From Rhizobium oryzihabitans (GTDB lineage Bacteria > Pseudomonadota > Alphaproteobacteria > Rhizobiales > Rhizobiaceae), in assembly GCF_010669145.1 (NCBI RefSeq), contig NZ_CP048635.1:372001-436000 (forward strand): 64,000 bases of DNA. Reading direction: 5' to 3'. Shown in pieces: positions 42,617 through 59,677 of the stretch; within the stretch, counting starts at the first letter, position 1, and the number at the start of each line of letters is the position of its first letter. Below the pieces are notes generated by a model that was not told the DNA's origin, made no database searches, and saw only the letters and a program-made list of their open reading frames with translations. The translations under genes were made by a program, and so were the position numbers.

Positions 42617-43431
42617 TTGAGACCTCTCATGCGCGGGTCAAGCCTGTCGCGCAGGGCATCGCCCAGAAGATTGATGCCAAGCAGCGTCAGCGCGATGCAG
42701 AGACCGGGGAAAAGCCCGAGCCAGACGGCCTGCTGGATGAAGGGACGGCCGGCGGCCAGCATGTTGCCCCAGGTGGGGGCCGGTGGCGGCACGCCGAGGC
42801 CGAGGAAGGACAGCGCACTTTCCGAGAGGATAGCCCAGCCGAACATGGAGGTGGCGAGCACCGTGATCGGCGCAATGCAATTGGGCAGGATGTGGCGGAA
42901 CATGGTGTAGATCTCGCCATTGCCCATCACCAGCGATGCCTCGATGAATTCGCGCTCACGCAGCGACAATACCGCGCCGCGCACCACACGCGCCATGGAC
43001 GGCGTGTAGGCGATGCCGAGCGCGAAGATGATGCCATACTGGTTGGCACCGAAAACCGCGAGAAGACCGAGCGCCAATAGGATGCCCGGAAAGGCGAGAA
43101 GCGCATTGTTGATGGCCATGATGACGCCATCCACCCAGCCGCGCGCATAACCGCTGACAAGACCGATCAAAGTACCGCAGATCGTCGCGAAACTGACCGT
43201 CAGGAAGCCAATCCAGACGCTGGCGCGCGCGCCGACCATCAGGCGGCTCAAAACATCGCGCCCGAACTCGTCGGTGCCGAGAAGATGGCTTGGGCCGGGT
43301 GCGGCCAGACGCGAGGCGAAACCGAGCTTCATCGGATCATAGGGCGTCCAGAAGAGGCCGGTAATGGCAGTGATGAGCAGGAGGGCGATGAGGAAGCCGC
43401 CGATAAGCCCGTTGAGTGTGAACTTTTTCAT
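42613..43431 (-). CDS. peptide-type ABC transporter permease, DppC-like
   Basis: A 272-residue permease with about six helices. DppC features are HLLGTDEFGRDVLSRLMVGA near the N-terminus and the ATPase-docking loop REREFIEASLVMGNGEIYTM followed by HILPN. Its start and stop overlap both neighbours by four bases (ATGA at each end), a sign of tight co-translation in the operon. Confidence 0.94.
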   Translation of the reverse strand: MKKFTLNGLIGGFLIALLLITAITGLFWTPYDPMKLGFASRLAAPGPSHLLGTDEFGRDVLSRLMVGARASVWIGFLTVSFATICGTLIGLVSGYARGWVDGVIMAINNALLAFPGILLALGLLAVFGANQYGIIFALGIAYTPSMARVVRGAVLSLREREFIEASLVMGNGEIYTMFRHILPNCIAPITVLATSMFGWAILSESALSFLGLGVPPPAPTWGNMLAAGRPFIQQAVWLGLFPGLCIALTLLGINLLGDALRDRLDPRMRGLK

Positions 43432-44372: not shown

Positions 44373-44464
44373 CGGTTCCCCACGATTGATGGCCGGGAAC
44401 GTGCTCCCGCCTCTATCGGTTTCGTTGCTGGCGACTATGACGGATTGATAAATAACGCGCAATA

Positions 44465-44492
44465 TTATGCATAAACGTCATATATCTATGCA
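44465..44492. promoter_or_regulatory. candidate LysR operator upstream of dppB-like gene
   Basis: The palindrome TTATGCATAA (44465-44474) overlaps a wider inverted repeat, TGCATA (44468-44473) and TATGCA (44487-44492), in an AT-rich stretch about 100 bases before the first transporter gene. This is the shape expected for a LysR-type site plus activation site. Binding by the neighbouring LysR protein is inferred. Confidence 0.4.
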
Positions 44493-44552
44493 GAATGGTG
44501 GCACGTTTCATCCTGACAGGGACATTGAGATTTCCCGCGAAAAACCCTGTTT

Positions 44553-45458
44553 TCAGTCAATTTTTTGCGAAAGCTGGATCTGTTGCTTCAAGGCGTCGCT
44601 AAGTGCCTGAGCAGCGATGGACAGCGGTGCGCCCGAGGCCCGGGCAAGACCGAACTCCTGCGTCGATTGCGGAATGAAGGGCCGCGCAACGACTGGAAGG
44701 TGCCTGTAGAGGTTGGCATAAAAACTGCTGATGATCGTAACGCCCAGCCCATGCGCGACATAGGCGCAGGCGGAACTGTTGGTGTGGGTTTCGATCTTCA
44801 CCATCGGCTTGACGCCCGCCTTCTTGAAGACCTGATCGAGCGCCATGCGGTTCGGCCGCTGCCGACCAATGAGAATGAGCGGAATGTTGCGCAGGTCCTT
44901 GACCGTGATTTCGGCAAGCTCGGCCAGCGGGTGATCCTGCCGGACCACGCAGACGCTTTTGCCGGTGGCAACACGCTCGACATCGATGCCCGGTCCGATC
45001 TCACCTTCCATACGCAGGAAACCAAGATCGATCACCCGCTCGCCAACCAGCTTGTTGATGGCAGTGGTCGTTTCGAAAAAAGTCTCGATACGCACACCGG
45101 GGAAATCCCTGACATAGTCGATCAGCATGGCGGGCGCGAAATTCTCCCACATGCTGCTCGGCAGGCCGATGCGGACAATTTCGGGACCGGCCGCACCATT
45201 GCGCAGATCTTCGGCGTGGCCGGACATGCGGTCGACGGCAAGCAGCACATTTTCCGCGTCCCGGGCAAGAAGCGCCGCCTCCGGCGTCGGGATCAGCCGC
45301 CCCTTGTCACGGGCAAACAGCGTCAGCGACAGGTCCGCCTCGAGCTGCGCCAGAAGCCGGCTGATACCGGACTGGCTGAGCCCCATGGCCTTGGCGGTGG
45401 CGATGGTCGAGCCGGTGGACAGAAGCGTGCGCAGGACTTCGAGCTGCTTGATATTCAT
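44553..45458 (-). CDS. LysR family transcriptional regulator
   Basis: A 301-residue regulator. The N-terminal helix-turn-helix reads MNIKQLEVLRTLLSTGSTI, then SQSGISRLLAQLEADL, and a substrate-binding fold follows from about residue 95 (VRIGLPSSMWENF). It is encoded just upstream of, and in the same direction as, the dipeptide-type transporter operon and probably controls it. The 3' end of the isoaspartyl peptidase gene lies 173 bases upstream. Confidence 0.93.
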   Translation of the reverse strand: MNIKQLEVLRTLLSTGSTIATAKAMGLSQSGISRLLAQLEADLSLTLFARDKGRLIPTPEAALLARDAENVLLAVDRMSGHAEDLRNGAAGPEIVRIGLPSSMWENFAPAMLIDYVRDFPGVRIETFFETTTAINKLVGERVIDLGFLRMEGEIGPGIDVERVATGKSVCVVRQDHPLAELAEITVKDLRNIPLILIGRQRPNRMALDQVFKKAGVKPMVKIETHTNSSACAYVAHGLGVTIISSFYANLYRHLPVVARPFIPQSTQEFGLARASGAPLSIAAQALSDALKQQIQLSQKID

Positions 45459-45631
45459 GAGGCCAGCACCATGGATGAAAGACGAGCCGGTTTCGGTTCA
45501 GACCTTTTGCCGCCGATAAGCCTTCATGTCACCGGTTTTTTTGCATTGTCACGCGGTCCGCTCGGTTGCCGGTTACAATTCCACCTCATAGACCCTGTCG
45601 TGGGTGGCAACGCGGGCCTCTCCTGATGGTG

Positions 45632-46516
45632 TCACCCAGCCCGGAACATGCCAGGCGTATTATAGGGCGCGGCAATGCCACCTTCGGCATCGATCGCCAC
45701 AAGTCCGGCACCGATATCATAGGGGGCCAGATCCTTGTGAACCAGATTGCCGGCGGCGGTCTCCAGGTCCTGCCCGAGATAGGCGACACGGGACGCGATC
45801 TCATGGCCGACGACATAACGGATGAAAAATTCACCCTTGCCGGTGCCGGAAACGGCGCAGGCACCGTTACGGGCATAGGTGCCGGCCCCGATTACCGGGC
45901 TGTCACCCACCCGGCCGTCAGGCTTGTTGGTGTAGCCGCCGGTGGAGGTCGCGGCTGCGAGATGCCCCGCCGCATCCAGTGCCACGGCGCCGACGGTTCC
46001 GTGTTTTTCGTTTTCCGTCGCTTCCGTACCGGCAGTGGCATGGGCCTTCATGGCCGTCAGCGCCTCGACACGCTTTTGCGTGGTGAAATAGGATTGAGGC
46101 TCCGTGGCAAGCCCCTTCTCCTGCGCAAACCGGTCAGCCGCTTCACCGGTGAGATAGACTGCGCGTTCATCCTCCATGAGCGCCCGGGCCGCCTTCACCG
46201 GGTTGCGGATGGCGCGGGAGGCGCTGATCGCGCCTGCCGCCAGGGTCTTGCCGTCCATGATCGACGCGTCGAGTTCGTGAACGCCATTCTCGTTGAGCGC
46301 CGCCCCATGACCTGCGTTGAAATGCGGGCTGTCTTCCATGACGACGACCGCCGCCTCAACCGCTTCCAGCGCAGTGCCGCCAGCCTTCAGCACGCCATAA
46401 CCGGCGCGCAGCGCCGCCGCCAGATCGTGGCGCGCCGCCTCCCACTCCTGCGGCGTCATGCTGTCTTCCGGCATCACGCCGCAACCACCGTGAATGGCCA
46501 ATGCGATCTTCGTCAT
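45632..46516 (-). CDS. iaaA: isoaspartyl peptidase / L-asparaginase (Ntn hydrolase)
   Basis: A 294-residue plant-type asparaginase precursor. The autocatalytic site is KHGTVGAVALD, with Thr174 as the new N-terminal nucleophile after self-cleavage; the substrate region NAGHGAALN and the HGGCG start (residues 9-13) are also conserved. These enzymes split beta-aspartyl dipeptides and asparagine. It is the last gene of the nine-gene peptide/HyuA operon, 45 bases after the second hyuA, implying that a beta-aspartyl amide is formed or imported by the pathway. GAGGAC lies right before the ATG. Confidence 0.92.
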   Translation of the reverse strand: MTKIALAIHGGCGVMPEDSMTPQEWEAARHDLAAALRAGYGVLKAGGTALEAVEAAVVVMEDSPHFNAGHGAALNENGVHELDASIMDGKTLAAGAISASRAIRNPVKAARALMEDERAVYLTGEAADRFAQEKGLATEPQSYFTTQKRVEALTAMKAHATAGTEATENEKHGTVGAVALDAAGHLAAATSTGGYTNKPDGRVGDSPVIGAGTYARNGACAVSGTGKGEFFIRYVVGHEIASRVAYLGQDLETAAGNLVHKDLAPYDIGAGLVAIDAEGGIAAPYNTPGMFRAG

Positions 46517-46561
46517 GTCCTCACTCCACTGTTGCCCTGCCGCCGGCAGGGCCTCTTACCA

Positions 46562-48100
46562 TCAATGAAAGCCGATATCGCCGATAACACGCACGCGGAC
46601 CCTGCGAGCGCCGCCAGGCAGATAGGCGATCGGAATATCCTCCACCTCAAGCGTCTTGAGGCTCGCGCGCTCCGCTCCCGAAGCAACCGCCGCGTTCTGC
46701 GCTTCGGTCTCGGCTTTCGCAAGGGCCTCGTCGCGGCTCAATCCGGAAAAGACCTGATCGACCTCGCCGGACACCTGCGCCATGGCTGCACCCAGCGCAT
46801 TGGCAACACCTGCATTTTCCACACGCAGCACCTCGGATGCGCCCGGCACCTGCTCCGGTATCAGGAATGCGCCACCGCCCACCGCAACCAGCGGCACGTC
46901 TTCGGCTGATGTCTTCATCTGGTCGAAACTGTCGGCCACCATATCGCGGATACGGCCGAGCGTCGCCTGCACGAATGCCGGATCGAGGTCCTTAACACGA
47001 TCCCTGTCGCCCATCTCGATCAGGCCTGCGGCAACGGCGACATCCGATGTCGTCAGTGTCTCGCCGCCGAAAACGCGGGCTTCGGTGAGGATGCGATACC
47101 CCACCGAGCGCGGGCCGATCTTGCCTGTCTGCGGGTCGACAATGGTGCCGCCGCCAAGTGCGATCGGCAGAAGATCGGGCATGCGGAAAAGGGTGCGCAC
47201 CCCGCCAATATGAACGATATTGTTCGCCTCACGCGGGAACCCGCCGACAAGGCAACCAATATCGGAGGTGGTGCCGCCGACATCCACCACCATGGCATCG
47301 GAAAGCCCGGTGAGGAAAGCAGCGCCGCGCATCGAATTCGTCGGGCCGGAAGCGAAGCTGTGCACGGGGTTGGTAGCGGCGATATCCGCAAGCGCCACGG
47401 TGCCGTCGTTCTGGGTCAGATAGAACGGCGCCTTCACACCCGCTTCTCGCAGCGCATCCGAAAATGCCTGTACCGTGGTCTTGCCAAGCGTCTGCAGGGC
47501 GGCATTCAGAAGTGCAACATTCTCGCGCTCCAGCAGCCCGATGCGGCCGAGCGTATGGGAAAGCGTGATGCGTGCATCGGGGATTACCGAACGGACGATC
47601 TCCGCCGCCCTCACCTCGCACTCCGTGGTCAGCGGCGAAAAGGTCGCGGAAATGGCGATGGAGATGATGCCCGCATCGCGGATTTTCATCGCCGCTTCAC
47701 GGATTTCATCCGGGATCATCGGCACCAGCGGACTGCCATCATATTCATGGCCGCCATGAACCATGAAGATCAGCGGATCGACGGCCTCGTGCAGATCCCT
47801 CGGCCAGTCGCACATGGGCGGCAGCGAAGAACCTGTTGGTAGCGCGATGCGGATGGCCGCGACCCGCTCCAGCCGGGCGCGCTCCACCACCGCATTGGTG
47901 AAATGCGTCGTGCCGATCATCACCGCGTCGATCGGGCGATCCGCCGCGCCGACATGGCCCGCCACGTGGCTCAATGCCGCCTTCACGCCGGACAGGACAT
48001 CCTGCGTGGTCGGAACCTTGATGGAGGCAACAATCGTGTCGCCATCTATGAGAACGGCATCCGTATTGGTGCCGCCAACGTCAATACCGATGCGTTTCAT
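46562..48100 (-). CDS. hyuA: hydantoinase/oxoprolinase family protein HyuA, second copy
   Basis: A 512-residue ASKHA-fold protein. Phosphate-binding motifs are GIDVGGTNTDAVLI (residues 4-17) and VDVGGTTSDIG in the centre; GTTHFTNAV and FASGPTNSMRGAAFL are family landmarks. Related N-methylhydantoinases and oxoprolinases use ATP to open cyclic amides. It is clearly a paralogue of the protein encoded at 52057-53613. Its ATG overlaps the stop of the DUF917 gene, so the two are co-translated and probably form a complex. In this pair the DUF917 gene comes first, the reverse of the other pair. Confidence 0.9.
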   Translation of the reverse strand: MKRIGIDVGGTNTDAVLIDGDTIVASIKVPTTQDVLSGVKAALSHVAGHVGAADRPIDAVMIGTTHFTNAVVERARLERVAAIRIALPTGSSLPPMCDWPRDLHEAVDPLIFMVHGGHEYDGSPLVPMIPDEIREAAMKIRDAGIISIAISATFSPLTTECEVRAAEIVRSVIPDARITLSHTLGRIGLLERENVALLNAALQTLGKTTVQAFSDALREAGVKAPFYLTQNDGTVALADIAATNPVHSFASGPTNSMRGAAFLTGLSDAMVVDVGGTTSDIGCLVGGFPREANNIVHIGGVRTLFRMPDLLPIALGGGTIVDPQTGKIGPRSVGYRILTEARVFGGETLTTSDVAVAAGLIEMGDRDRVKDLDPAFVQATLGRIRDMVADSFDQMKTSAEDVPLVAVGGGAFLIPEQVPGASEVLRVENAGVANALGAAMAQVSGEVDQVFSGLSRDEALAKAETEAQNAAVASGAERASLKTLEVEDIPIAYLPGGARRVRVRVIGDIGFH

Positions 48101-49173
48101 GGGAATACCGATTTGAAATCAATGTCATAACCGAAGGCGCGCGGGCCGACGGCGGCGATGCCGGCAGGAGTCGTCAAGAGGTCCGGCGCCGGCAGGGCCA
48201 CGACCGTGACACGCTGGCCATACCGCACCGATTCCGTGCCGATGGCGCTGCCCGAGATAGTGTCGAGAAGGCAGAGCAGGTCCGGCGTCATGGCAACCGG
48301 CTGGCCATCACGGAAGGCGACCGCCCATTCGTTCTGGAAGGCCAGCTCCATGCGCGAACCCCGGTCGGCGTCTATGCCTTCAATGGTCGTGCTGCCGCGC
48401 AGGAAGCCGCCGGTGGTCTCGCGGGCGACATCCACCACCTTGCCACGGAACAGCTGCTTGCCGCCCTCATGGTCGAGAACCGCCTGAACCGGATCGTCAT
48501 GGCGCGCACGCGCCTCCATCACCGCGCGCCCGAGTTCGGTCGCTTTGGTGACGGTGTAATGAATGCCCCATTCCTTCACTTCCTTGCCGGTGCGCGGCGC
48601 CTTGCAGGTGGCGGCGGTGGAGCCGACTTCGGTGCAGACCTTGCGCGAGATGCGCTCCATCCATTTCCACGAGGCAGCCCGCGTGACGATCACCTCATTG
48701 TCGCGCACATCGACGAGCGACAGCGGGAACATCGGCAGGTTGCCGATGGCGAAGGATGTCATCTGCGCTTCCGGATAGGCGCGTCCCATGGCGTCCGCGT
48801 TCACGACCGGCCGGTCGAGCACGGCGGCGGCGAGGAAGGAGGAAAGCGCGTTCGAGCCGCCGATTTCCACGCTCATGATCGCCCGAAACGGCTTGCCGAG
48901 ATAATCCTCCATCACCTCGACGGCGCGGGCGAGATGCACGGGATCCCCCAGCCGTTCCTGACCGACAAGCGGCGCACCCATCTTGGAGACGACGGCAACC
49001 ATGTCGTCATCGGCAAGCGCCATGGGATCCATGACCTTTACCCGCCTGCCCTCGGCGTAAAGACGGCGCAGATTGAGCGTCGATATATAGGGGTTGCCAC
49101 CGCCGCCGGTTCCCAGAATCCAGGCGCCGGTAGCCAGAGGTTCAATATCGTCTTCGGAAAATTCCTGGATCAT
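48097..49173 (-). CDS. DUF917 family protein, second copy
   Basis: A 358-residue protein of the DUF917 (S-methyl-thiohydantoin desulfurase-like) family. The N-terminal glycine-rich motif GAWILGTGGGGNPYIS and the segment VEIGGSNALSS, then DAMGRAYPEAQMTSFA, are shared with the paralogue at 50931-52064. DUF917 genes typically sit beside hyuA-type genes, and the two products are thought to act together; the chemistry is poorly known. It follows the binding-protein gene by 118 bases containing a hairpin and overlaps the second hyuA by ATGA. Confidence 0.88.
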   Translation of the reverse strand: MIQEFSEDDIEPLATGAWILGTGGGGNPYISTLNLRRLYAEGRRVKVMDPMALADDDMVAVVSKMGAPLVGQERLGDPVHLARAVEVMEDYLGKPFRAIMSVEIGGSNALSSFLAAAVLDRPVVNADAMGRAYPEAQMTSFAIGNLPMFPLSLVDVRDNEVIVTRAASWKWMERISRKVCTEVGSTAATCKAPRTGKEVKEWGIHYTVTKATELGRAVMEARARHDDPVQAVLDHEGGKQLFRGKVVDVARETTGGFLRGSTTIEGIDADRGSRMELAFQNEWAVAFRDGQPVAMTPDLLCLLDTISGSAIGTESVRYGQRVTVVALPAPDLLTTPAGIAAVGPRAFGYDIDFKSVFP

Positions 49174-49250
49174 GCGTCATCCTCGGGCATGCCGCAGCCG
49201 TTCCGGCCGCAGGCGATGCTCCTTCCCTTTGAAGGTCCAAGTCTGGCCAA

Positions 49251-49270
49251 CCCCGCCATTTGTGGCGGGG
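49251..49270 (-). terminator. intercistronic hairpin after the binding-protein gene
   Basis: CCCCGCCA and TGGCGGGG pair over a four-base loop, 21 bases after the binding-protein stop codon on the minus strand. There is no T-run. It likely stabilises or partly terminates the upstream message. Confidence 0.5.
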
Positions 49271-49291
49271 CCGGTTTTCATGAAGTGGAGA

Positions 49292-50887
49292 TCACTCCGC
49301 CTTGCAGTCCCAATGGAAATTGGAGAAGTTCAGGTCCCAGCTCTGCATGGGAATGAACTCGTAACCCTGAAGGCACTTGTTCGCCGCATAACGGCGGTTC
49401 GGCGCAACGGCCCAGACGTCAGGCTGAAGATCGGCGATCTTCGTCTGCAGTTCCTTGTAGGTGGCGTTCTGCTCGTTCACATCCGTGGTGGCGCGGACCT
49501 TGTCGATCAGCCCGTCGATTTCCGCATTCTGCAGCCATTCCATCGACATCCAGGTGCCGGATGCCTTGGAGTGATACTGGTTGTAGAACATCGAATCCGG
49601 CGACGGGTAGGTCGGCGAGATGTTCACCTGCGTCGATGCCGGCGTCGTTTCAGGCTTGGAGGACAGCTCGACGATACGGTTCCACGGCTCGGGCTTGATA
49701 TCGAGCGTGATGCCGATCTGTTCGAGGCTGGATTGCAGAAGCAGCGCCACTTCCGCCTCGAAGGCCAGCGACGCGACATAGCTGTTGACCAGCGTAATCT
49801 TCTGGCCGGCATATTTCGACTTCGCCAACTCTTCCTTGGCTTTCTCCAGATCGTAAACGCCGGGCTGGATATCGCCATTATGCGCGTCCTTGAACGCGTC
49901 TGAGAGCGGTCCCTTCATATCGAAGCCCGGATAGATCACTTCCTGGATCGTCTTGTAATCCGTCGCATAGGCGATGGCGCGGCGAACGTGCACGTCGTCG
50001 GTCGGATAGACCTTGGTATTGAGCTTGATGACGAAACCGCCGGCGGTGCGGGTCTGGATCAGCTTGTAACCCTTCATCCGGCCGATGGATTCATAGGTGT
50101 CGTTGCCAAGCCCGTGCGAGGAAAGGCCGAGTTCGCCCTTTTCCGCCAGCGCCTTCACGGTGGCGTCGTCGCTGGTCTGCACGAAGCGCACTTCATCGAT
50201 AGGCTTGCCCTTGGTCCAGCCGAGGAAATAATCGGCATTGCGGGCGATGACCATATCGGCGGAACGGTTGTAGCTGACGAGCTTGTAGGGGCCGGAGCCG
50301 GCGGAATGTTCGCCGACATAGGCCTCGCCCCATTTGTCTTCGGGCTTGGCATTGGCTTCGATCAGCGTCTTGTTCATCGCCATCATCAATGGCGTCGCCG
50401 CCATGAAAGGCGAGAACTGGCGCTCGATCTTCATGACCAGCGTGGCATCGTCAGGCGCAGTGACGTTTTCTGGCTTCAGAACGCCGACGATGAGGTTCGA
50501 AGGACCCTTGTTGATGCCGAGCAGGCGCTGGATCGACCAGGCAAGATCGGCAGCCTTTACCGCCGTACCGTCCTGGAATTTCGCATCGTCGCGCAGGTGG
50601 AAGGTGTAGGTCAGGCCGTCCTCGGAAATATCCCAGGATTTCGCCAGATGCGGCACGATTTCGCCCTTGGCGTTCACCGTGGTGAGGCCGTCATACATGT
50701 TCACGATGGCCATGTAGCCGGTGTAGTCCGTCACCTTCGCCGGGTCGAGCGAGCTGAATATCTGCATGGTGTTGACCGCGACTGACACCTTGTCTTCCGC
50801 AAGGGCTGCGGAAGAAACAAGCGGCAACGCAAGCGCCGTACCGAGCGCCAGCGCGGCGAGACGGGAAGAAAGTACAGGCATTTTCAT
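49292..50887 (-). CDS. peptide-type ABC transporter substrate-binding protein (SBP family 5)
   Basis: A 531-residue periplasmic protein. The first 29 residues are a Sec signal ending SSAALA. Typical parts are SLDPAKVTDYTGYMAIVNMY, LTYTFHLRDDAKFQDGTAV and AGSGPYKLVSYN. The ATG at 50887 has GAGGAG upstream. Its gene lies inside the enzyme block of the operon, between the two DUF917 genes, far from its permease genes at 55281-57190, which is unusual but on the same transcript direction. The ligand may be a cyclic or beta-aspartyl peptide. Confidence 0.92.
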   Translation of the reverse strand: MKMPVLSSRLAALALGTALALPLVSSAALAEDKVSVAVNTMQIFSSLDPAKVTDYTGYMAIVNMYDGLTTVNAKGEIVPHLAKSWDISEDGLTYTFHLRDDAKFQDGTAVKAADLAWSIQRLLGINKGPSNLIVGVLKPENVTAPDDATLVMKIERQFSPFMAATPLMMAMNKTLIEANAKPEDKWGEAYVGEHSAGSGPYKLVSYNRSADMVIARNADYFLGWTKGKPIDEVRFVQTSDDATVKALAEKGELGLSSHGLGNDTYESIGRMKGYKLIQTRTAGGFVIKLNTKVYPTDDVHVRRAIAYATDYKTIQEVIYPGFDMKGPLSDAFKDAHNGDIQPGVYDLEKAKEELAKSKYAGQKITLVNSYVASLAFEAEVALLLQSSLEQIGITLDIKPEPWNRIVELSSKPETTPASTQVNISPTYPSPDSMFYNQYHSKASGTWMSMEWLQNAEIDGLIDKVRATTDVNEQNATYKELQTKIADLQPDVWAVAPNRRYAANKCLQGYEFIPMQSWDLNFSNFHWDCKAE

Positions 50888-50930
50888 TATCGTTCTCCTC
50901 TTTATTGCGGAGCATTGGCCCCGCTTATGG

Positions 50931-52064
50931 TTAGGCGGCCTTGCTGGCCGGAACGGGCAGCGGTGAGAAAGGAATGTCCGGGTAACCGAAGGCCGCCGGC
51001 CCGACGACCTCAAGCGCGCGGGCGCTGCGCAGCAGGTCATGGCAGGGGATGGCGATGACGGCCACGCGCTGGCCGTAGCGCAGCACTTCGGTGGTGATCG
51101 GATAACCGGTGTCGACATCGAGCAGGACGATCAGATCGGGAACCGTCACTTCCACCTTGCCGTCACGGGAAAACAGCAGGAATTCGTTCTGGATGGCAAC
51201 GCCCGCCGTCTGGCCGGCGCAATCGTCGAAGCCGGAGAGCGTGAGATCGCCGACCGCGAAACCGCCGCGCAGGTGGCGCTTCAGATCGGTGATCTTGCCG
51301 TTGAAGATGCGCTTTCCGCCTTCTAGCGCGCAGACCGCGGCAATCGGATCTTCCTGCTGCTTGCGGGCGCGGATCACCGCCTCACCGATGGCGATCGCCT
51401 TGGTGTAGGTTTTCGGAATGCCGTATTGGTGCACGTAATGCGCCTGCATCGGCGCGGTCGCCAGCATCGCGCCGCCGCCCTGCGAAACGACGCAGGCGCG
51501 CGCCATGCGCTCGTGCCAGACTTCGGAAACGGCGTGGCTGAAGATAACAGCATTGCCGTGCAGATCGCACATCACCGACGGCGTGGAACTGTGGCCGTAG
51601 ATGGAGAAGGTGGTCATCTGCATTTCCGGGAAAGCCCGGCCCATGCCATCGCAATCAAGGATCGGCAGGCCGCCCAGCGCCGCGGTGACCAGCGGGTTCA
51701 TGGAATTGGAACCGCCGATTTCCTCGCAGACGATGGCGTCGACAGGCGTGCGGATCAGCTCTTCCATGGCGCGCAGGCAACGCAGTCCCTCACGGCCCTC
51801 GCGAATGCGCTCCACGCCGACCACCGGCGCGCCGATGCCGCCGATGGACATGCAAAGCGCGTCCGGCTCGATGGCATCGGTGGCAAGGATCTTCATCTCG
51901 TAACCGGCCTTCATCGCCTCGAGTGCAAGCAGCTTGCCCAGATAGGGATTGCCGCCGCCGCCCGTGCCGAGAATGCCGGCGCCGATTTCCAGCGCATCGA
52001 GATCTTCACGGGTCAGCGTCCGCAATGCCGCTTCGTCATATTTCAGCTTGCGCGTCTCAGCCAT
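50931..52064 (-). CDS. DUF917 family protein, first copy
   Basis: A 377-residue DUF917 protein, paralogous to the one at 48097-49173: GAGILGTGGGGNPYLG, CEEIGGSNSMNP and DCDGMGRAFPEMQMTTFS align without gaps by eye. The ATG at 52064 has GGGAG upstream and overlaps the end of the first hyuA by eight bases. It has about 20 extra N-terminal residues compared with the other copy. Likely partner of the adjacent HyuA in an ATP-dependent reaction on a cyclic amide or thiohydantoin-like compound. Confidence 0.88.
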   Translation of the reverse strand: MAETRKLKYDEAALRTLTREDLDALEIGAGILGTGGGGNPYLGKLLALEAMKAGYEMKILATDAIEPDALCMSIGGIGAPVVGVERIREGREGLRCLRAMEELIRTPVDAIVCEEIGGSNSMNPLVTAALGGLPILDCDGMGRAFPEMQMTTFSIYGHSSTPSVMCDLHGNAVIFSHAVSEVWHERMARACVVSQGGGAMLATAPMQAHYVHQYGIPKTYTKAIAIGEAVIRARKQQEDPIAAVCALEGGKRIFNGKITDLKRHLRGGFAVGDLTLSGFDDCAGQTAGVAIQNEFLLFSRDGKVEVTVPDLIVLLDVDTGYPITTEVLRYGQRVAVIAIPCHDLLRSARALEVVGPAAFGYPDIPFSPLPVPASKAA

Positions 52065-53613
52065 GATTGGCTCCCATTTCTCCAACGACTTTCACATGAA
52101 TGCGGGTGGCATTGCCGGGCAGATAGGCAAGCGGCATGTCCTCGCGCTCGATGACTTCCAGCGTCTCGGCGACCGCGCCGGCCGCAATCGCCTTCTCGCG
52201 CGCCTCCGCTTCAGCTTCCGCCAGTGCACTCTCGCGCGTGCGTCCGTCCACCAGCGAGAAGACCCGGTCGGTCTCGCCGCTGATCTGCGCGATTGCCGCG
52301 CCGACGGCATTGGCCACCGCGAAATTCTCGGGCCGGATGACCTCAAGGTCACCGATACGATCCGGCATCAGGATGGAACCGCCGCCAACGGCAATCACCG
52401 GCACCGGTGACGACGAGATGCGGCTGCGCTCCACGCAGGCCTCGAGCATGTCGTTGATCTTGTCGACCGCCGCATCCACGAGCTTTTTGTCGAGGCTGGA
52501 GACCAGCGCCTTCTCACCCACATCCGCCTTGCCGGAGGCAACCGCGATATCGGTTGCCGTCAGGGTCGAGCCACCGAAGCAGAGTGCATCGCGGCGAACG
52601 CGGTAACCGACGGATTTCGGGCCGACGGTCAGCCCATGGTCGCCCTTGACCACCAGCGAACCACCACCGAGACCGATGGAGAAGACGTCAGGCATGCGGA
52701 AATTGGTGCGCACGCCGCCAATATCCACCGTCGTGGAAGCCTGACGCGGGAAGCCATGCGACAGCGAGCCGACATCGGAGGTGGTGCCGCCGACATCCAC
52801 CACGACGGCATCCTTGAGACCAGTAAGGAAAGCCGCACCGCGCATGGAATTCGTCGGTCCGGAAGCGAAGGTGAGCACGGGGAAGCCACGCACCACATCC
52901 GCCGCCATCAACGTGCCGTCGTTCTGGGTAATGTAGAACGGGCAGGTGATGCCCGCCGCCTTCAGCGCCTCACCGAAAGCGGCGACGGTGCGGTCGGCAA
53001 GCGACAACAAGCTGGCATTCATGATCGCCGCGCTCTCGCGAGCGAGCAGACCGTGGCGGCCGATATCCTTGGACATGACAACCGGCAGGCCGGGGCAACG
53101 CTCCTGCAGGATTTCCTTCGTCCGCAGTTCCATCGCATCGTTGATGCCGCTGAAAACGCAGGTGACGGCGGCCGCCTTCAGGCCCTTGGCGCGGATGTCG
53201 GCGGCGATGCGGACGATTTCGTCCTCATCAAGGGCTGAGATTTCACGACCGTCGAATTCATATCCGCCCCGGACCTGATATCCGTGGTTACCAACGATTT
53301 CTCTCAGATCATCCGGCCAGTCGACCATGGGCGGCAGGCCGGCGCCGGACGGCAGGCCGAGACGGATGGCGGCCACCTCGTCCATATGCCGGCGCTCGAT
53401 CACCGCATTGGTGAAATGCGTGGTGCCGATCATCACGGCGCCGATGCGTGCCCTGTCGATGCCCGATGCCTCGATGACCTTTTCAAGGGCTTCGATGACA
53501 CCGGACGTCACATCTTCGGTGGTGGAGGCTTTCACCCCCGCCAGAACGGTTTTATCCTGTAACACAACGGCATCGGTATTCGTGCCGCCGACGTCAATTC
53601 CAACGCGATACAC
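52057..53613 (-). CDS. hyuA: hydantoinase/oxoprolinase family protein HyuA, first copy
   Basis: A 518-residue ASKHA-fold protein. Motifs are RVGIDVGGTNTDAVVL at the start, GTTHFTNAVIE, FASGPTNSMRGAAFL and VDVGGTTSDVG. I take the GTG at 53613 as start: GAGGAG lies six bases upstream, whereas a TTG seven codons earlier has no ribosome site. It follows the ATPase gene by 17 bases and overlaps the DUF917 gene. Related enzymes open hydantoins or 5-oxoproline with ATP; there is no separate HyuB gene, and DUF917 appears to take the partner position. Confidence 0.9.
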   Translation of the reverse strand: MYRVGIDVGGTNTDAVVLQDKTVLAGVKASTTEDVTSGVIEALEKVIEASGIDRARIGAVMIGTTHFTNAVIERRHMDEVAAIRLGLPSGAGLPPMVDWPDDLREIVGNHGYQVRGGYEFDGREISALDEDEIVRIAADIRAKGLKAAAVTCVFSGINDAMELRTKEILQERCPGLPVVMSKDIGRHGLLARESAAIMNASLLSLADRTVAAFGEALKAAGITCPFYITQNDGTLMAADVVRGFPVLTFASGPTNSMRGAAFLTGLKDAVVVDVGGTTSDVGSLSHGFPRQASTTVDIGGVRTNFRMPDVFSIGLGGGSLVVKGDHGLTVGPKSVGYRVRRDALCFGGSTLTATDIAVASGKADVGEKALVSSLDKKLVDAAVDKINDMLEACVERSRISSSPVPVIAVGGGSILMPDRIGDLEVIRPENFAVANAVGAAIAQISGETDRVFSLVDGRTRESALAEAEAEAREKAIAAGAVAETLEVIEREDMPLAYLPGNATRIHVKVVGEMGANHG

Positions 53614-53630
53614 GTCAGGCTCCTCTTTTA

Positions 53631-55277
53631 TCAATCGGTCGTTTTTACGAGGAAGCGCATGCGCTCTTCCTCGGTCACGGTGGGTTTCAGACGCTCTTCC
53701 TCGTCCGTGACGACGGGGATCGCCGCGATCAGGGCGCGGGTATAGGGATGCGACGGCTCAGCGAAGACCGCAGATGTCACCCCCTCCTCGACGATCTCGC
53801 CACGCAGCATGATGGCGATGCGCGAACAGAAATTGCGCATCAGCGACAGGTCGTGCGAGATCATCAGGTAGGTCAGGCCAAGCTCCTCCCGCAGCTGCAG
53901 CAGAAGGTCGATAACGGTCTTCTGCACGGAGACATCAAGCGCGGCCGTCGGCTCATCGAGGATGAGGATTTTCGGCTCCGCCGCCAGCGCGCGGGCTATC
54001 GCCACGCGCTGCTTCTGGCCGCCGGAAAGTTCGTGCGGATATTTGCCGAGATAGGATTGCGGCAACCGCACCAGCCCCATCAGTTCCTGCATACGGCTTT
54101 CACGCGCCTGCCCATCCATGCCGATGGATTTCAGCGGCAGGGTCAGCGTCTGTTTCACCGTGCGCTTCGGATTGAGGGACGTGCCTGGATTTTGATAAAC
54201 GATCTGCGTCAGCCGCTTGCCGCGCTCAGGTGCCGGGGCGTCGATGACAAGACTACCGGAGGTGGGACGGGAAAGGCCCATGATCATGCGCGCAACCGAG
54301 GTCTTGCCGGAACCGGATTCACCCGCAAGGCCAAAAACCTCGCCCTGCTTCAGCGTCAGGTTCACGTCGCGCACGGCATGGTAGCCATTGCGCCTGCCAT
54401 AAATCTTGTTCAGGCCTTCGATGGTGATGATCGGCTGCCGCGTGCTTTGCGTGAGATCCGTGACACGCGAGCCATAGAGCGGCGGCACTGCATCCAGCAG
54501 CGAACGCGTATAATCCGCAGCGGGAGCGTGCAGGATTTGCGTGCAAGGACCGGTTTCGACGATATCGCCGTGGTGCATAACCACGACCCTGTCGGCCACC
54601 TTGCGCACGACGCCGAGATTGTGGGTTATCATCAGCAGCGCCATGTTTTCTTCGGCAACCAGCTGGTTGATGAGATTGAGAATTTCATCCTGTGTGGTGA
54701 CGTCGAGCGCCGTGCCAGGCTCGTCCGCGATCAGGAGCTTCGGCTGGTGCAGCAGCGCAAGGCCGATCAGCACGCGCTGGCGCATGCCGCCCGAAAGCTC
54801 GGACGGATAGGCATTCATGACCCTCTCGGTATCGCCTAGCTGCACGCGGCGCAAAACCGCTGCGATACGGGTGCGACGCTCCGCCTTGGACGAGTTGATG
54901 CCGTCACGTTTGTCGGCAAAGCGCATGACATCATCGAGATGCGTGCCGATCTTGAAGACCGGATTGAAGGAAGACAGCGGGTCCTGCATGATCAGCGAAA
55001 ATGCCGTGCCCTTCAGCGCCTCGCGTTCCCTTCGCGGCATGGCGAGCACATCCCGGCCATCGATCACGATCGCACCGGAGGTGATCGAGGCATTCTTCGG
55101 CAAAGTGCCGATGATCGCCTTGGCGGTGACGGATTTACCCGATCCGGTTTCACCGATCAACGCCACGCGCTCACCAGCGGCAACCGTAAAGGCGACATCG
55201 CGCAACACCTGGCGCGTGCGGCCATAATTGGTGAAGGTGACGTTGAGGTTTTCGACTTTGAGAAGCGGTTCAGTCAT
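53631..55277 (-). CDS. peptide-type ABC transporter ATPase, two fused domains
   Basis: A 548-residue double ATPase. Domain one: GETGSGKSV, LSGGMRQRVLIGLAL, IADEPGTALD; domain two: GESGSGKTS, LSGGQKQRVAIARAL, LDEPTAALD. Both carry the oligopeptide-transporter tails (APAADYTRSLLDAVP and PSHPYTRALIAAIP). GT in place of PT in the first Walker B extension is a minor oddity. It lies three bases after the second permease and 17 bases before hyuA, linking transport to the enzymes. Confidence 0.94.
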   Translation of the reverse strand: MTEPLLKVENLNVTFTNYGRTRQVLRDVAFTVAAGERVALIGETGSGKSVTAKAIIGTLPKNASITSGAIVIDGRDVLAMPRREREALKGTAFSLIMQDPLSSFNPVFKIGTHLDDVMRFADKRDGINSSKAERRTRIAAVLRRVQLGDTERVMNAYPSELSGGMRQRVLIGLALLHQPKLLIADEPGTALDVTTQDEILNLINQLVAEENMALLMITHNLGVVRKVADRVVVMHHGDIVETGPCTQILHAPAADYTRSLLDAVPPLYGSRVTDLTQSTRQPIITIEGLNKIYGRRNGYHAVRDVNLTLKQGEVFGLAGESGSGKTSVARMIMGLSRPTSGSLVIDAPAPERGKRLTQIVYQNPGTSLNPKRTVKQTLTLPLKSIGMDGQARESRMQELMGLVRLPQSYLGKYPHELSGGQKQRVAIARALAAEPKILILDEPTAALDVSVQKTVIDLLLQLREELGLTYLMISHDLSLMRNFCSRIAIMLRGEIVEEGVTSAVFAEPSHPYTRALIAAIPVVTDEEERLKPTVTEEERMRFLVKTTD

Positions 55278-55280
55278 GGC

Positions 55281-56162
55281 TTAGCTTTCCACGTCGAACA
55301 TGTCACGCAGGCCGTCGCCCAGCAGATTGAAACCCAGCGTAACGTAAAGCACGGCCGCACCGGGGCAGAGGACTTCCCACCAGAAATCCGGCATGAACTG
55401 ACGCCCGTCGGCAACCATCGATCCGAGATCGGGGGTCGGCGGCTTGACGCCAAAACCGAGGAAGCTCAGCGTCGCGCCGAAGAGGATGACGAAAGCCGCA
55501 TCCAGCGTCGTCTTGACCGATATGACCGAGACGCAATTGGGCAGGATTTCGCGAAAGAGAATGTGCAGCGGTCCGGCACCGGCAAGACGCGCGGCTTCGA
55601 TATAATCCTCGGATGCGATGGATTTCGACACCGAATAGATCAGCCGCGCATGCCAGGTCCACCACAGAAGCGTGATCGCGATCATGGCGTTCATCAAGGT
55701 GGGTTCCAGCAGGTTGGAGACCGCCAGCGCCATGACGAGCGGCGGCATGGCCAGCATTACATTCGTCAGGCCACTGATGATTTTTTCAGTCCAGCCACCG
55801 AAATACCCGGCGACCAGGCCAAGCACCGTGCCGACGGGAACCGAAATGCCGAGCACGCCGATGACGAGAAGAAGCGAGACCCTGAGCCCGAAGACGGTAC
55901 GGGAGAAAATGTCGCGTCCGGCCTTGTCCGTGCCGAACCAGTGCTCCAGATCCGGCGGCATGTGGCGGGCACGGAAATCGACGACAGCGCCGATATGTTT
56001 GGGATAGGGCGTGAGCCAGGGCGCAAAGATCGCCAGAACCAGCACCGACAGCAGGATCAGCGAACCGATGACCGCCGCCGGATTGCGGCTGAAGCGATAC
56101 CACATCATGTAACCGGCGCTTAGGCCCCGATCGGTGGGTTCGAGCATTTTGATATCAGCCAT
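55281..56162 (-). CDS. peptide-type ABC transporter permease, DppC-like
   Basis: A 293-residue permease with about six helices. DppC features are HWFGTDKAGRDIFSRTVFGL and the docking loop SEDYIEAARLAGAGPLHILF followed by REILPNC. Its ATG overlaps the stop of the upstream permease by one base (TGATG). A longer open frame upstream is antisense-like noise over the first permease and is not part of the protein. Confidence 0.93.
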   Translation of the reverse strand: MADIKMLEPTDRGLSAGYMMWYRFSRNPAAVIGSLILLSVLVLAIFAPWLTPYPKHIGAVVDFRARHMPPDLEHWFGTDKAGRDIFSRTVFGLRVSLLLVIGVLGISVPVGTVLGLVAGYFGGWTEKIISGLTNVMLAMPPLVMALAVSNLLEPTLMNAMIAITLLWWTWHARLIYSVSKSIASEDYIEAARLAGAGPLHILFREILPNCVSVISVKTTLDAAFVILFGATLSFLGFGVKPPTPDLGSMVADGRQFMPDFWWEVLCPGAAVLYVTLGFNLLGDGLRDMFDVES

Positions 56163-57190
56163 CAGCGAGCCTCCTTGCGGCGCAGGCGCGGGTCGATGAT
56201 CGAGATCAGGACATCCACGATCAGGTTCGCAACGATGAAGAACAGGCCGGCCACCAGCACCACGGCGGTCACGGCATTGAGGTCTTTCTGCAGGATGGCG
56301 TTCAGCCCGTAGGAAGCGAAGCCGCCCCAGGCGAAGACCATTTCGATCACGAAGGCATTGCCGATCAGCGAGGCGAATTCGAGCCCCATGATCGTCAGCG
56401 GCGCGATGGAGGAGAGCTTCAAGAGATAACGGAAGATGATGACCCGCTCCGGCACGCCGAAGCTTTGCAGGGTGAGCACGTGATCCTTGCGCTGGTTCTC
56501 GATCATCGAGGAACGCGTGATGCGGGTGATTTGGCCGATGCCGGCCATGGAGAGCGCAAAGGCCGGCAGCGCAAGGTGCTTCAGCGCATCCAGCACCACA
56601 TCGAACCGTCCGGCAAGCGTCCCGTCGATCAGGATGAAGCCCGTCGGGCCGCCCTGCCAGCCGAGCGAGTGATCGAGCCTGCCGATGATCGGCCAACCGG
56701 AGAGAAAGCGGGCGGCGAGCAATTGCAGCGTGATCGCAAAGAGAAAGCTCGGGATCGTCACGCCTGTGAGCGACAGGATGCGGCCGATATGGTCGAGCGG
56801 CCGGTCGCGGTAATGCGCGGTGATGACGCCGAGCGGGATGGCGACGGCAAACATGAAGATAACCGAGACCAGAACCAGTTCGACGGTGGCTGGAACGGTC
56901 TGCGCCAGATCGGTGGTGACCGGACGCTGGGAAACCAGTGAGAAGCCGAGATCGCCGTGCAAGGCATTCCCGATATAGTCGAGATATTGGGCGGCGAGCG
57001 GTTTATCGAGACCCATCTCGCCGCGCAGCGCATCCACCTGTTCCTGCGTTGCCGCGGGGCCGAGTGCCATGCGGGCGGGATCACCCGGCACCACGCGGGC
57101 GAGAACGAAGATCATGATGGACAGGGCGATCATGACCAGCACGAAAGCGCCGAGCCTGTTCAAAATCGCGACCAGCGGATGTTGCTGCAT
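56162..57190 (-). CDS. peptide-type ABC transporter permease, DppB-like
   Basis: A 342-residue permease and the first gene of the nine-gene operon. Landmarks are RVVPGDPARMALGPAATQEQ near residue 33 and the docking loop around MIENQRKDHVLTLQSFGVPE. The binding site for the ATPase and six helices are as in DppB. It diverges from the LuxR-type regulator gene across 136 bases that contain a pair of direct repeats. The ATG has AAGGAAC 12 bases upstream, a slightly long spacing. Confidence 0.92.
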   Translation of the reverse strand: MQQHPLVAILNRLGAFVLVMIALSIMIFVLARVVPGDPARMALGPAATQEQVDALRGEMGLDKPLAAQYLDYIGNALHGDLGFSLVSQRPVTTDLAQTVPATVELVLVSVIFMFAVAIPLGVITAHYRDRPLDHIGRILSLTGVTIPSFLFAITLQLLAARFLSGWPIIGRLDHSLGWQGGPTGFILIDGTLAGRFDVVLDALKHLALPAFALSMAGIGQITRITRSSMIENQRKDHVLTLQSFGVPERVIIFRYLLKLSSIAPLTIMGLEFASLIGNAFVIEMVFAWGGFASYGLNAILQKDLNAVTAVVLVAGLFFIVANLIVDVLISIIDPRLRRKEAR

Positions 57191-57267
57191 CGGTGGAACG
57201 TTCCTTGTGCATCAGTTGCCTGAGCACAAGTTTTCACCACACGTCCTTTCGAACAATCGCCGAAAGG

Positions 57268-57301
57268 TATAGTTTTTTGATGAATGAGTATAGGTTTTTG
57301 A
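57268..57301. promoter_or_regulatory. pair of direct repeats in the divergent promoter
   Basis: TATAGTTTTTTGA (57268-57280) and TATAGGTTTTTGA (57289-57301) differ by one base and start 21 bases apart, two helical turns, so a protein dimer could contact both on one face of the DNA. They lie between the peptide/HyuA operon and the regulator gene, 26 bases before the latter's ATG. Binding by the LuxR-type regulator is inferred. Confidence 0.5.
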
Positions 57302-57326
57302 ATTCAAATCGCCTATCCCTTTCTCA

Positions 57327-59195
57327 ATGACGCTTCTGCCGCGCACCCACCTCTGCCGCCGCATCGCCAGCGAAACCGCAGGCGTGATCTTTCTGCGCGC
57401 ACCCGCAGGTGCGGGAAAAAGCGTTCTCATGGACTTGCTGGCACACGAGCTGGGAACCGAGGTATGCCGGACGCACCAGCCTAGAAGTGATGATGCGGCA
57501 AAAGGCTGTCTGCTTTGGGATGTGCCGGTCTTCGCACGCGCGGTCCGCATGCCCGCCCCTATTCTGGAAACCGTGCGTTTCGTGGTCATCGCCTGCCGTC
57601 CGGATCAACGTATCAGCGGGCTGGCGCGGCAGATCCTGCATCGCGGCTCGCTGACGATCGGGGCAGATGAACTGGTCTTCGGCCAAGATGAGGCCGCGGG
57701 CCTTCCATTGGAACAGAAGCGCCTCGCGCTCGATGACTATGCGGGGTGGCCGGCCTTTCTGTCTCTCGCCCGCCTGGCCGACGAAAAACTATGCGTCGAC
57801 TATCTGCGGGAAAATTATCTGCCACACCTGTCACCGGCGCAGACGGTTGCGCTTTCGCTCTGGCTCGAAAATCCCTCGGCAGCACCAGGCGCGGACTGGG
57901 CCGAACTCCTGCCGCCGTTCCTGACCGCAAACCCGGAAAAACACGGCACGCTGATAAGGCTTCTGACCGTGGCGGCGAAAGACCGTCTCGCCACATTGCA
58001 GGCTGGCAGCGCCGTGGTGGAGGTCGCCTCGGCTTTCGAAAGAGAAGGGCGGGCGCTTGCGGCAATGGCCATGTTGCTCGACCGCGGTTACGAGACCCAC
58101 GCCGCGCAAATCCTTGAACGCGCCCATGGGCGCGAACTGATCTACCGAAGCAGCGTCGACAGGTTTCGCGATATCATCATGCGGTTTTCGCAAGACATGA
58201 TCGCGGCGAACGAGACCGTGCTCTTTGCCGTCACCCGCGCGCTTCTGAAACAGGGCGAATTGCAGCGCGTGCGCCATCTGCTCGGCAAGAGCCTCGGTTC
58301 GGATTATCTCGATCCGCTCAAGGTGCTTGCCCGTGGCTCGCGTTTTTCCTTCGCCGCCCGCACCTTCCGGCTGAACCTGATGATCGCCGAGGACCTGACC
58401 CCCAATGACGCCGTGATAACGCGTCTCGCGGAGTTCATGGCCGATTATCCCATGGACGATCACGGCAAATGGGCGGCCTATTACAATGCACTGCTGGAAT
58501 TCGAAATCCGCCGCCGCAATTTCCGCGAGGCGGAGGCCGCCGCCGCACGCGCTCTGATCTATCTGCGCAAGATGGGCGGGCAGCCCCTGCTGGAATTTTT
58601 CATCCATCTGCACCAGATCGTGCTGCGGCTGATGAGCGGCGATGTGCTTCTGGCCCGTCGGGCGGCGCAGGAGGCGCGCGCGCGGCTGGAACAGGTGCCG
58701 CATGATGCTGCGCAGGAGTTCCGGATGTTGCGGCTGGCGGAAGCCTGTCTTGCCTATGAGGCGGGAAAGCCGCGCGACCTGCTGCATTTCGTCGAGCACG
58801 AATTTGATCATTTCGCTGCCGCCGAGATATGGCCGAGCCTGATGCAGTTTGCCCTGTTTTACGCCTCGCAGGTGTTGATCGACCATTTTCCGATGACCGT
58901 TCGACCTGGCTTTCTCGACGGCCTGTGGATCCACCTTTCGGAAGGGCTGCAATTCCATGCGATGATGGAGGTCAGGACGGCGCTCGCCTATCAGAACGCC
59001 AACCGCTGGGCGGATGCGGCAGCGACGCTTTCCGCGATCCGCATGCCCATGGGCCGCAACTGGGTGGAGAGCGCGCATGAGGATCTTTCCCGACTGATGC
59101 GCCGCGATGAAATCGCCTATGTCATGGCGTGGCTGCGCGATGCGGTGCATCTTTTCACGCCGCGTGCCTATCTCTCCGCCAGATCGACGCGATGA
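57327..59195 (+). CDS. MalT-like LuxR-family regulator, N-terminal part (frame broken)
   Basis: A 622-residue open frame carrying the ATP-binding and helical-repeat parts of a large MalT-type regulator. Walker A is APAGAGKS (residues 25-32); from about residue 200 onward the sequence is alpha-helical and TPR-like. It ends without the DNA-binding domain: the expected continuation, with a LuxR helix-turn-helix, is in another frame just downstream. Adding one base near 59180 would join them to about 780 residues, near the family's length. So this is a one-base deletion, a sequencing error, or a split gene. No ribosome site is obvious before the ATG. It diverges from the HyuA operon. Confidence 0.75.
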   Translation: MTLLPRTHLCRRIASETAGVIFLRAPAGAGKSVLMDLLAHELGTEVCRTHQPRSDDAAKGCLLWDVPVFARAVRMPAPILETVRFVVIACRPDQRISGLARQILHRGSLTIGADELVFGQDEAAGLPLEQKRLALDDYAGWPAFLSLARLADEKLCVDYLRENYLPHLSPAQTVALSLWLENPSAAPGADWAELLPPFLTANPEKHGTLIRLLTVAAKDRLATLQAGSAVVEVASAFEREGRALAAMAMLLDRGYETHAAQILERAHGRELIYRSSVDRFRDIIMRFSQDMIAANETVLFAVTRALLKQGELQRVRHLLGKSLGSDYLDPLKVLARGSRFSFAARTFRLNLMIAEDLTPNDAVITRLAEFMADYPMDDHGKWAAYYNALLEFEIRRRNFREAEAAAARALIYLRKMGGQPLLEFFIHLHQIVLRLMSGDVLLARRAAQEARARLEQVPHDAAQEFRMLRLAEACLAYEAGKPRDLLHFVEHEFDHFAAAEIWPSLMQFALFYASQVLIDHFPMTVRPGFLDGLWIHLSEGLQFHAMMEVRTALAYQNANRWADAAATLSAIRMPMGRNWVESAHEDLSRLMRRDEIAYVMAWLRDAVHLFTPRAYLSARSTR

Positions 59196-59677
59196 TCGCC
59201 AATCCCAAGGTCACCAACCGCGAAAAGGTCGCGCTGAGAATCTGGCAGAGCTATGCCGCGCATCAGCGCCGCGACAATGCCGCCGCCCGCGCCCACATCC
59301 TCACGGCCCTTGAATCGGCGACCCGCCTTGGCTGCAGCGGCGTCCTGTCGGAGGAGCGCATCTTCCTGTCGCCGCTTCTGAACAATCGCCGTATCCGCAG
59401 CTTTATCGAAACCTCGTCCGATGTCCGCACCGCGCTGTCGATTTTCGCCGCTTCGGTGAATTCACCGCAGGCCCGCGCCCTGCATGGCGGGCTTTCGCAG
59501 CGGGAGGCGCAGATGTTGCAACTGCTCGCCAGCGGCATGTCGAACAAGAAGATCGCCCAGACGCTCAATATCTCGGAAGTGACGGTGAAGTTTCACCTCG
59601 GCAACCTGTTCCGCAAGCTGGATTGCAAACGCCGCGCGGAGGCGATCCGCGCGGCGAAAGCACTGGGCTGGCTGTAA
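59192..59677 (+). CDS. LuxR-type DNA-binding part of the broken MalT-like regulator
   Basis: A 161-residue frame that starts with an ATG overlapping the stop of the N-terminal part (ATGA), so translational restart is possible. Residues 1-95 continue the helical region; from about residue 101 the LuxR/NarL helix-turn-helix is intact (LSQREAQMLQLLASGMSNKK, then ISEVTVKFHLGNLFRKL). All key residues are present, meaning the break is recent, an error, or tolerated. It could be read as the 3' part of a pseudogene spanning 57327-59677. It ends three bases before the convergent RraA-type gene. Confidence 0.7.
   Translation: MIANPKVTNREKVALRIWQSYAAHQRRDNAAARAHILTALESATRLGCSGVLSEERIFLSPLLNNRRIRSFIETSSDVRTALSIFAASVNSPQARALHGGLSQREAQMLQLLASGMSNKKIAQTLNISEVTVKFHLGNLFRKLDCKRRAEAIRAAKALGWL

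Follow-up and report, generated by a model that had tools for sequence, protein, structure and literature searches.

What does a bacterial operon do that sets two HyuA-type ATPases, each next to a DUF917 protein, beside a peptide importer and an isoaspartyl peptidase? Such an operon lies in the window analyzed here, a 64,000-nucleotide stretch of Rhizobium oryzihabitans (NZ_CP048635.1, 372,001-436,000), whose positions are used throughout. It comprises nine genes, all on the minus strand and running from 57190 to 45632: permease, permease, double ATPase, HyuA1, DUF917a, binding protein, DUF917b, HyuA2, and an Asparaginase_2 peptidase. This set and its order had been claimed from the DNA letters without database searches (the sequence-only reading), and all nine were found among the open reading frames (ORFs), each family being confirmed by Pfam. 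We favor, at a probability of about 0.5, a scavenging system in which imported ring amides would be opened by two HyuA–DUF917 enzymes, with cyclic dipeptides as the preferred substrates. The general part of this proposal, that the pair is an ATP-dependent cyclic amide hydrolase, has somewhat better odds than the whole, and the choice of cyclic dipeptides (2,5-diketopiperazines) is a tentative one at odds below even.

The HyuA–DUF917 pairs

Gene content, family membership, ATP-site motifs, the absence of any HyuB match, and conservation of the pairs can be read from sequence. HyuA1 (52057..53634) and HyuA2 (46562..48100, 512 residues) are short ATPase subunits sharing 51% identity. Both exceed the cut-offs of 25.2 and 22.9 bits for Hydant_A_N (PF05378; 143 bits in HyuA1, 149 in HyuA2) and Hydantoinase_A (PF01968; 110 and 97 bits), and both carry the phosphate motifs DxGGTxTD, as DVGGTNTD, and a second DxGGT. 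The adenosine motif GxxPGP is replaced by GPKSVGY in HyuA1 and GPRSVGY in HyuA2. Among 162 DUF917-linked HyuA proteins, DVGGT[NH]TD is present in 161 and GPxSVG[YF] in 159, GxxPGP occurs at that site in none, and 133 are 500 to 559 residues long as read; by these features, DUF917-linked HyuA is a branch defined by its sequence. The HyuA2 model is predicted to fold like CapA and like subunits of acetophenone/acetone carboxylase and N-methylhydantoinase, and it aligns to caprolactamase CapA (6yra) over residues 6 to 614 (chain length 691). On a Parageobacillus plasmid, a second DUF917–HyuA pair (L143, 3008-5518; L and G label loci and genomes) has a HyuA that lacks the DVGGT motif and is perhaps degenerate.

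The presumed partners, DUF917a of HyuA1 (50931..52064) and DUF917b of HyuA2 (48097..49173), are 40% identical. Both match PF06032 and PF20906 above cut-off (180 and 219 bits in DUF917a), a family that Pfam names S-Me-THD-like, and DUF917b has the fold of 2o3i; a HyuB-like fold was not among the structural matches listed for DUF917. HyuB itself (PF02538) gave no match in the operon's own genome, the same search being positive in 6 of 14 control genomes, and the genome's only two HyuA genes are those of the operon. The suggestion that DUF917 stands in HyuB's place is upheld by these results.

The HyuA–DUF917 linkage, which the sequence-only reading had seen in one genome, was found in many species. 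In a phylum sample of 249 genomes, nine had a DUF917 match, six of them at 170 bits or more (G000, G128, G238, G285, G366, G368). HyuA adjoins DUF917 in five of these six, the location of the single HyuA in G368 not being listed. Three of the six (G000, G366, G368) have no HyuB match though HyuA is present; G128 and G238 each have one HyuB, which adjoins another HyuA, and G285 has five HyuB matches, all of them away from its DUF917. The remaining three genomes had a thiohydantoin-like score (G029, 61 bits), two HyuA genes far from DUF917 (G234, 103 bits), or a match below cut-off (G231). In the bacterial family, 41 of 151 genomes had a DUF917 match, and HyuA adjoins DUF917 in 18 of 20 stretches examined from 19 genomes, our own included; the other two are of the thiohydantoin type. 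Furthermore, 152 plasmid records had a DUF917 match, and HyuA adjoined it at all 12 loci examined from the 40 records listed.

The neighbors of these plasmid pairs vary. A "cytosine permease," which we take to be of the NCS1 family, is adjacent in 5/12 (Lactobacillales, Bacillaceae, Sodalis) and AroM in 2/12, an Asp/Glu racemase is nearby in 3/12, and an M20 hydrolase lies within 3 kb in 2/12. The pair is therefore a cassette combined with different importers, and the ring that it opens probably differs by clade. In the family sample, a DUF917 is present within 10 kb of six of the seven AroM matches over cut-off (three of four genomes). The plasmid records examined, from both Pseudomonadota and Bacillota, name the pair only as "hydantoinase/oxoprolinase family" and "DUF917," and no paper on a HyuA–DUF917 enzyme was found in a partial coverage of the literature. 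Of the papers cited here, parts of the text were available: in those parts, DUF917, hydantoinase, and cytosine permease are listed together in L. rhamnosus (PMC7513527), and in C. difficile, genes with neighboring numbers for a permease, DUF917, and a hydantoinase shift jointly in an hcpR transcriptome (PMC12915319), with the pair discussed in neither available part.

Conservation of the whole operon was followed by a DUF917b search of genome contigs, the best 80 loci of 175 relatives being read with the window's proteins. Both pairs recur in the same order (importer, HyuA1, DUF917a, binding protein, DUF917b, HyuA2) at 51 of the 80, with DUF917b identities of 81-99%, and L052 apparently holds this operon truncated at the end of its contig, giving 52 type I loci. 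Given its recurrence in unchanged order at 51 other loci, the block is not due to chance. Type I hosts are Rhizobiaceae, Alloyangia, and Acidimangrovimonas, the last two represented by L080, L082, L083, and L095. The other 28 loci, termed type II, have DUF917b–HyuA2 without HyuA1; in all 28 the pair is divergent from an Opp-type importer and accompanied by two AroM-like genes, which occur in 0/52 type I loci. In L093 (8899-9855), the sole type II locus scanned with Pfam, one AroM is fused to a LuxR-type helix-turn-helix (HTH) and is likely a sensor that borrows an enzyme fold.

The sequence-only reading also saw two clear paralogous pairs in opposite gene order, which is confirmed, and judged two separate complexes likely; two separate enzymes are supported. 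Trees of 42 thinned pairs, which were quick trees with several long branches, split by gene order, requiring two changes for HyuA and three for DUF917 versus 14.3 on shuffles. HyuA1–DUF917a falls in the HyuA-first clade and DUF917b–HyuA2 in the DUF917-first clade; one HyuA-first DUF917 (L119) was placed outside its clade. Moreover, in G078 the modules are on separate contigs, the first accompanied by the importer (L129), the second by AroM (L128). Since the two clades have opposite order and G078 holds the modules apart, the operon is best seen, on this comparative evidence, as two independent enzymes joined, in preference to an obligatory two-step sequence. The pairs belong to separate clades with largely fixed order, and on that ground local duplication of one pair was rejected. 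In nine loci (L116, L117, L118, L120, L130, L134, L138, L145, L146), a tandem of two DUF917 genes follows a single HyuA; there, two DUF917 proteins may share that HyuA, or DUF917 may form a heteromer.

Proposed chemistry and candidate substrates

The genome contains a built-in comparison for DUF917, with HyuA in the operon and without it in an ergothioneine cluster. Thiohydantoin desulfurases remove sulfur from a ring carbon. A third DUF917 (G000 C4:1074000-1093000; L115 5306-15075) scores 560 bits as such a desulfurase, the cut-off being 440, and no HyuA was found in the 19 kb examined around it. Its cluster also encodes hydantoin-5-propionate amidohydrolase, N-carbamyl-glutamate amidohydrolase, thiourocanate hydratase, and a histidine-ammonia-lyase-like enzyme. 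By content (ErtD, ErtE, desulfurase, thiourocanate hydratase, a major facilitator superfamily transporter, and the ammonia-lyase-like enzyme) this is an ergothioneine-utilization cluster, and another genome's low-scoring DUF917 copy sits in a similar one (L131). Both operon copies score 94-115 bits against the NCBIfam equivalogs for thiohydantoin and S-methyl-thiohydantoin desulfurase (NF058529, NF058532), versus cut-offs of 440 and 450. These equivalogs and the Pfam name correct the view of DUF917 as poorly characterized, the family being no longer entirely uncharacterized. The 42 thinned HyuA-linked DUF917s share R131, R177, N281, E282, and D298 (42/42) and D155 (40/42) with this genome's desulfurase, and have in common E73, E103, N108, D127, E173, and E314, which it lacks.

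From these features we infer complex formation, phosphorylation, ring opening, the substrate, and the order of steps. The Opp-type ABC importer would take up a small ring-shaped amide. HyuA, as an actin-fold kinase, would transfer phosphate to the amide oxygen, making an imidoyl phosphate, and DUF917 would add water to the activated (imidate) carbon so that the ring opens. Two such ATP-consuming enzymes would act independently, one per substrate or stereochemical set, and dipeptidases would then cleave the linear dipeptides, the isoaspartyl peptidase serving in this operon and, in relatives, an M19 dipeptidase as well. Thiohydantoin desulfurase, a HyuA-free DUF917 whose ring carbon is pre-activated by sulfur, would have in HyuA–DUF917 a counterpart driven by ATP. 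By analogy, the DUF917 fold may handle activated imidate-like carbons, with HyuA supplying the activation from ATP. This division of labor is suggested because the desulfurase has no adjacent HyuA in this genome and because of the CapAB mechanism: lactim-oxygen phosphorylation in the HyuA-type subunit and hydrolysis in a metal-bearing partner is one of three mechanisms considered in the available text, where lactam hydrolysis is strongly lowered by mutation of the two phosphate-site aspartates and lost when the metal site of the partner is mutated (PMC8453981).

Cyclic dipeptides are favored on account of the importer type, the dipeptidases, and reported degradation by Agrobacterium and Rhizobium. 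Agrobacterium radiobacter NM 5-3 and a Rhizobium sp. degrade cyclic dipeptides, and the ring-opening enzymes were called unclear in 2013 in the accessible part of that paper (PMC3852281). Additionally, cyclodipeptide-oxidase clusters are described as enriched in DUF917, AroM, and hydantoin racemase in the available portion of one study (PMC11055893), and a caprolactam paper, likewise available in part, raises cyclic dipeptide hydrolysis as a possible function of some genes called "5-oxoprolinase" (PMC6061476). Of the ring types proposed in the sequence-only reading, the diketopiperazine has been kept as the favorite. Its aspartimide ring is a poor substrate on chemical grounds and was rejected: aspartimide hydrolyzes spontaneously, and a self-hydrolyzing ring needs no ATP. 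If correct, the cyclic-dipeptide assignment supplies enzymes for an orphan soil activity that has been on record since about 2000, with no genes named in the sources consulted, and it predicts ATP dependence. The joint claim is possible but rather speculative: HyuA–DUF917 would add another architecture to the ATP-dependent cyclic amide hydrolases, with DUF917 hydrolyzing the imidoyl phosphate much as its desulfurase cousin does a thioimidate-like ring, and the operon would account genetically for the breakdown of cyclic dipeptides in Agrobacterium and Rhizobium.

The peptidase (45632..46516), an N-terminal nucleophile isoaspartyl peptidase/asparaginase type 2, matches PF01112 at 313 bits, and in an alignment with 2zak its nucleophile Thr174 corresponds to residue 1 of solved beta chains; against the NCBIfam equivalog PRK10226 it scores 250 bits, the cut-off being 567. 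L055 ends inside HyuA2, which leaves 51 type I loci, L052 included, with sequence past that gene. A peptidase lies directly downstream in 39 of these, L052 being counted by gene order alone and L046 having it as two ORFs (12590-13642), perhaps a broken copy. It is absent in 12, among which the genes downstream have no common theme in the three inspected: an oxidoreductase (L051), HlyD (L069), and a binding protein (L078). Two further type I-like loci (L132, L133) also lack it, and no such peptidase was found in type II within the stretches examined (0/28). In eight type I loci, HyuA2 or the peptidase is followed by an M19 dipeptidase, which in three of them replaces the peptidase, as judged by clustering with two of the eight Pfam-tested. 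Because it lies downstream in only 39/51, the peptidase is a variable add-on to the operon.

A survey of the 151 family genomes, with the window's peptidase rather than PF01112 as query, found it to be its own genome's only match; 23 genomes had any match and 14, our own included, one of at least 147 bits. A housekeeping peptidase located here by chance is not supported by this rarity. Ten of the 13 other loci at or above 147 bits were examined: Opp-type transporter genes were nearby in six and absent in four, and neither HyuA nor DUF917 was found beside the peptidase relative within these stretches. In G017, a HyuA–DUF917 locus lies about 14 kb from a peptidase relative, and in E. coli, there is an overlap between iaaA and gsiA, a gene of the gsiABCD glutathione importer. 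As its relatives lie near Opp transporters without HyuA–DUF917, the peptidase may be tied to peptide uptake in general; this, with its loss in 12/51 loci, weakens the idea that it cleaves the product of ring opening.

Several points weigh against the proposed scavenging of cyclic dipeptides. The peptidase may follow peptide importers rather than HyuA–DUF917, and, missing as it is in those 12 loci, possibly belongs to the transporter; it is of the beta-aspartyl type, whereas opening of cyclo(Asp-X) yields ordinary alpha-peptides. The acidic residues E73, E103, D127, E173, and E314 of HyuA-linked DUF917s are conserved, with no role attached. The cyclodipeptide-oxidase family PF19585 had no matches in the 151 family genomes, in a search whose controls also gave none. 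The "cytosine permease" beside five of 12 plasmid pairs suits hydantoins or nucleobase-like rings over dipeptides, and a hydantoinase role for DUF917 is suggested by the authors of the oxidase-cluster study in its available portion (PMC11055893).

The main rival to cyclic dipeptides accordingly keeps the enzymes and changes the ring: hydantoins, dihydropyrimidines, or nucleobase-like heterocycles would be opened to N-carbamoyl amino acids. N-methylhydantoinase among the solved relatives of HyuA and the racemase or M20 hydrolase near other pairs, together with that permease, speak for it, but the operon has no carbamoylase, racemase, or cytosine-permease gene, its importer is Opp-type, and its companion gene is a peptidase; we consider this rival unlikely here. 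Quite doubtful is the scheme of the sequence-only reading, in which both pairs act in turn on one imide or diketopiperazine before the peptidase cleaves a beta-aspartyl product. The two pairs do share one operon at the 51 loci with both in view, with the peptidase following in 39/51; yet 28 type II loci have the second pair by itself, next to a transporter of its own, G078 keeps the modules apart, and the peptidase is variable. With either module occurring alone elsewhere, two ATP-driven steps on one molecule lose ground. Import and opening of a lactam opine, a pyroglutamyl, or another Amadori-type lactam is improbable: the hosts include Agrobacterium and Rhizobium, and AgaA, which binds agropinic acid, a lactam, is the binding protein's best solved relative, but that match is moderate (118 bits) among many family-5 proteins, the operon has no opine-catabolic oxidase, and it is also present in Alloyangia and Acidimangrovimonas. 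Degradation of a sulfur compound, with DUF917 as a thiohydantoin or S-methyl-thiohydantoin desulfurase as in the Pfam superfamily name, is highly improbable given the low equivalog scores, the lack of a thiourocanate hydratase, lyase, or methyltransferase among the nine genes, and the location of the cut-off-passing copy elsewhere without HyuA.

Gene layout, regulator, and flanking genes

The importer is Opp-type by Pfam, having two permeases, two ABC domains, and a family-5 binding protein. Permease B (56162..57190) carries PF00528 and PF19300, permease C (55281..56162) PF00528 and PF12911, and the double ABC ATPase (53631..55277, 548 residues) two PF00005 stretches and PF08352. The binding protein (SBP_bac_5, 49292..50887) matches PF00496 at 257 bits and AgaA (6hlx) at 118 bits. 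Neighboring genes range from an 8-nucleotide overlap to a 118-nucleotide gap. The overlapping starts and stops that had been claimed are present, at 1 nucleotide between the permeases, 8 between HyuA1 and DUF917a, and 4 between DUF917b and HyuA2; HyuA2 and the peptidase are 45 nucleotides apart. The ATPase and HyuA1 overlap by 4 nucleotides only if HyuA1 starts at TTG 53634; the alternative GTG at 53613 has AGGAG upstream. Starts at 56162 (permease C), 52064 (DUF917a), and 50887 (binding protein) are likelier than those of the longest ORFs. G+C content is even across the region (61.5-62.0% per 4-kb window, 44001 to 60000). Promoter and terminator sites were no more numerous than in shuffled sequence, no Rfam match exceeded its threshold, and a tRNA scan found none.

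Divergent from the operon, on the plus strand, lies a MalT/LuxR-like regulator part of 622 residues (57327..59195) with no HTH and no Pfam match alone. An ORF in another frame (59129..59677, plus strand) has a LuxR-type HTH (PF00196, 77 bits) and is presumably the same regulator. A relative lies beside the operon on the opposite strand in all 51 type I loci that reach that far. The split over two frames (57327-59677), where three relatives have a single ORF of 789-869 residues, is either an assembly error or a real break. Upstream of the regulator (59681-62210) are genes for an RraA-like aldolase and an IlvD/Edd-type dehydratase. Directly downstream of the operon (42613-45458) come a gene for a LysR protein and another Opp-type ABC cluster, with synteny kept in several Agrobacterium loci.

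Relation to known systems

CapAB caprolactamase, N-methylhydantoinase, and 5-oxoprolinase use HyuA with HyuB, whereas no HyuB was found in this genome. CapA and a HyuB-paired HyuA are 691-692 residues long, versus mostly 500-559 in DUF917-linked HyuA, and the GxxPGP of the HyuA/HyuB family is GPxSVGY in the operon. Thiohydantoin desulfurases (NF058529, NF058532) belong to the DUF917 family and share R131, D155, R177, N281, E282, and D298 with the operon's proteins, as seen in the one desulfurase compared; the operon copies differ in their low equivalog scores (94-115 bits versus 440/450), in the adjacent HyuA, and in E73, E103, N108, D127, E173, and E314. Cyclodipeptide-oxidase clusters, in the available text on them, resemble the operon in combining DUF917 with ABC peptide importers and peptidases (PMC11055893) and differ in the oxidase, PF19585 being unmatched in the 151 family genomes in the search with the silent control. 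E. coli iaaA–gsiABCD likewise has an Asparaginase_2 peptidase adjoining an Opp-type importer, but it contains neither HyuA nor DUF917 and has another gene order.

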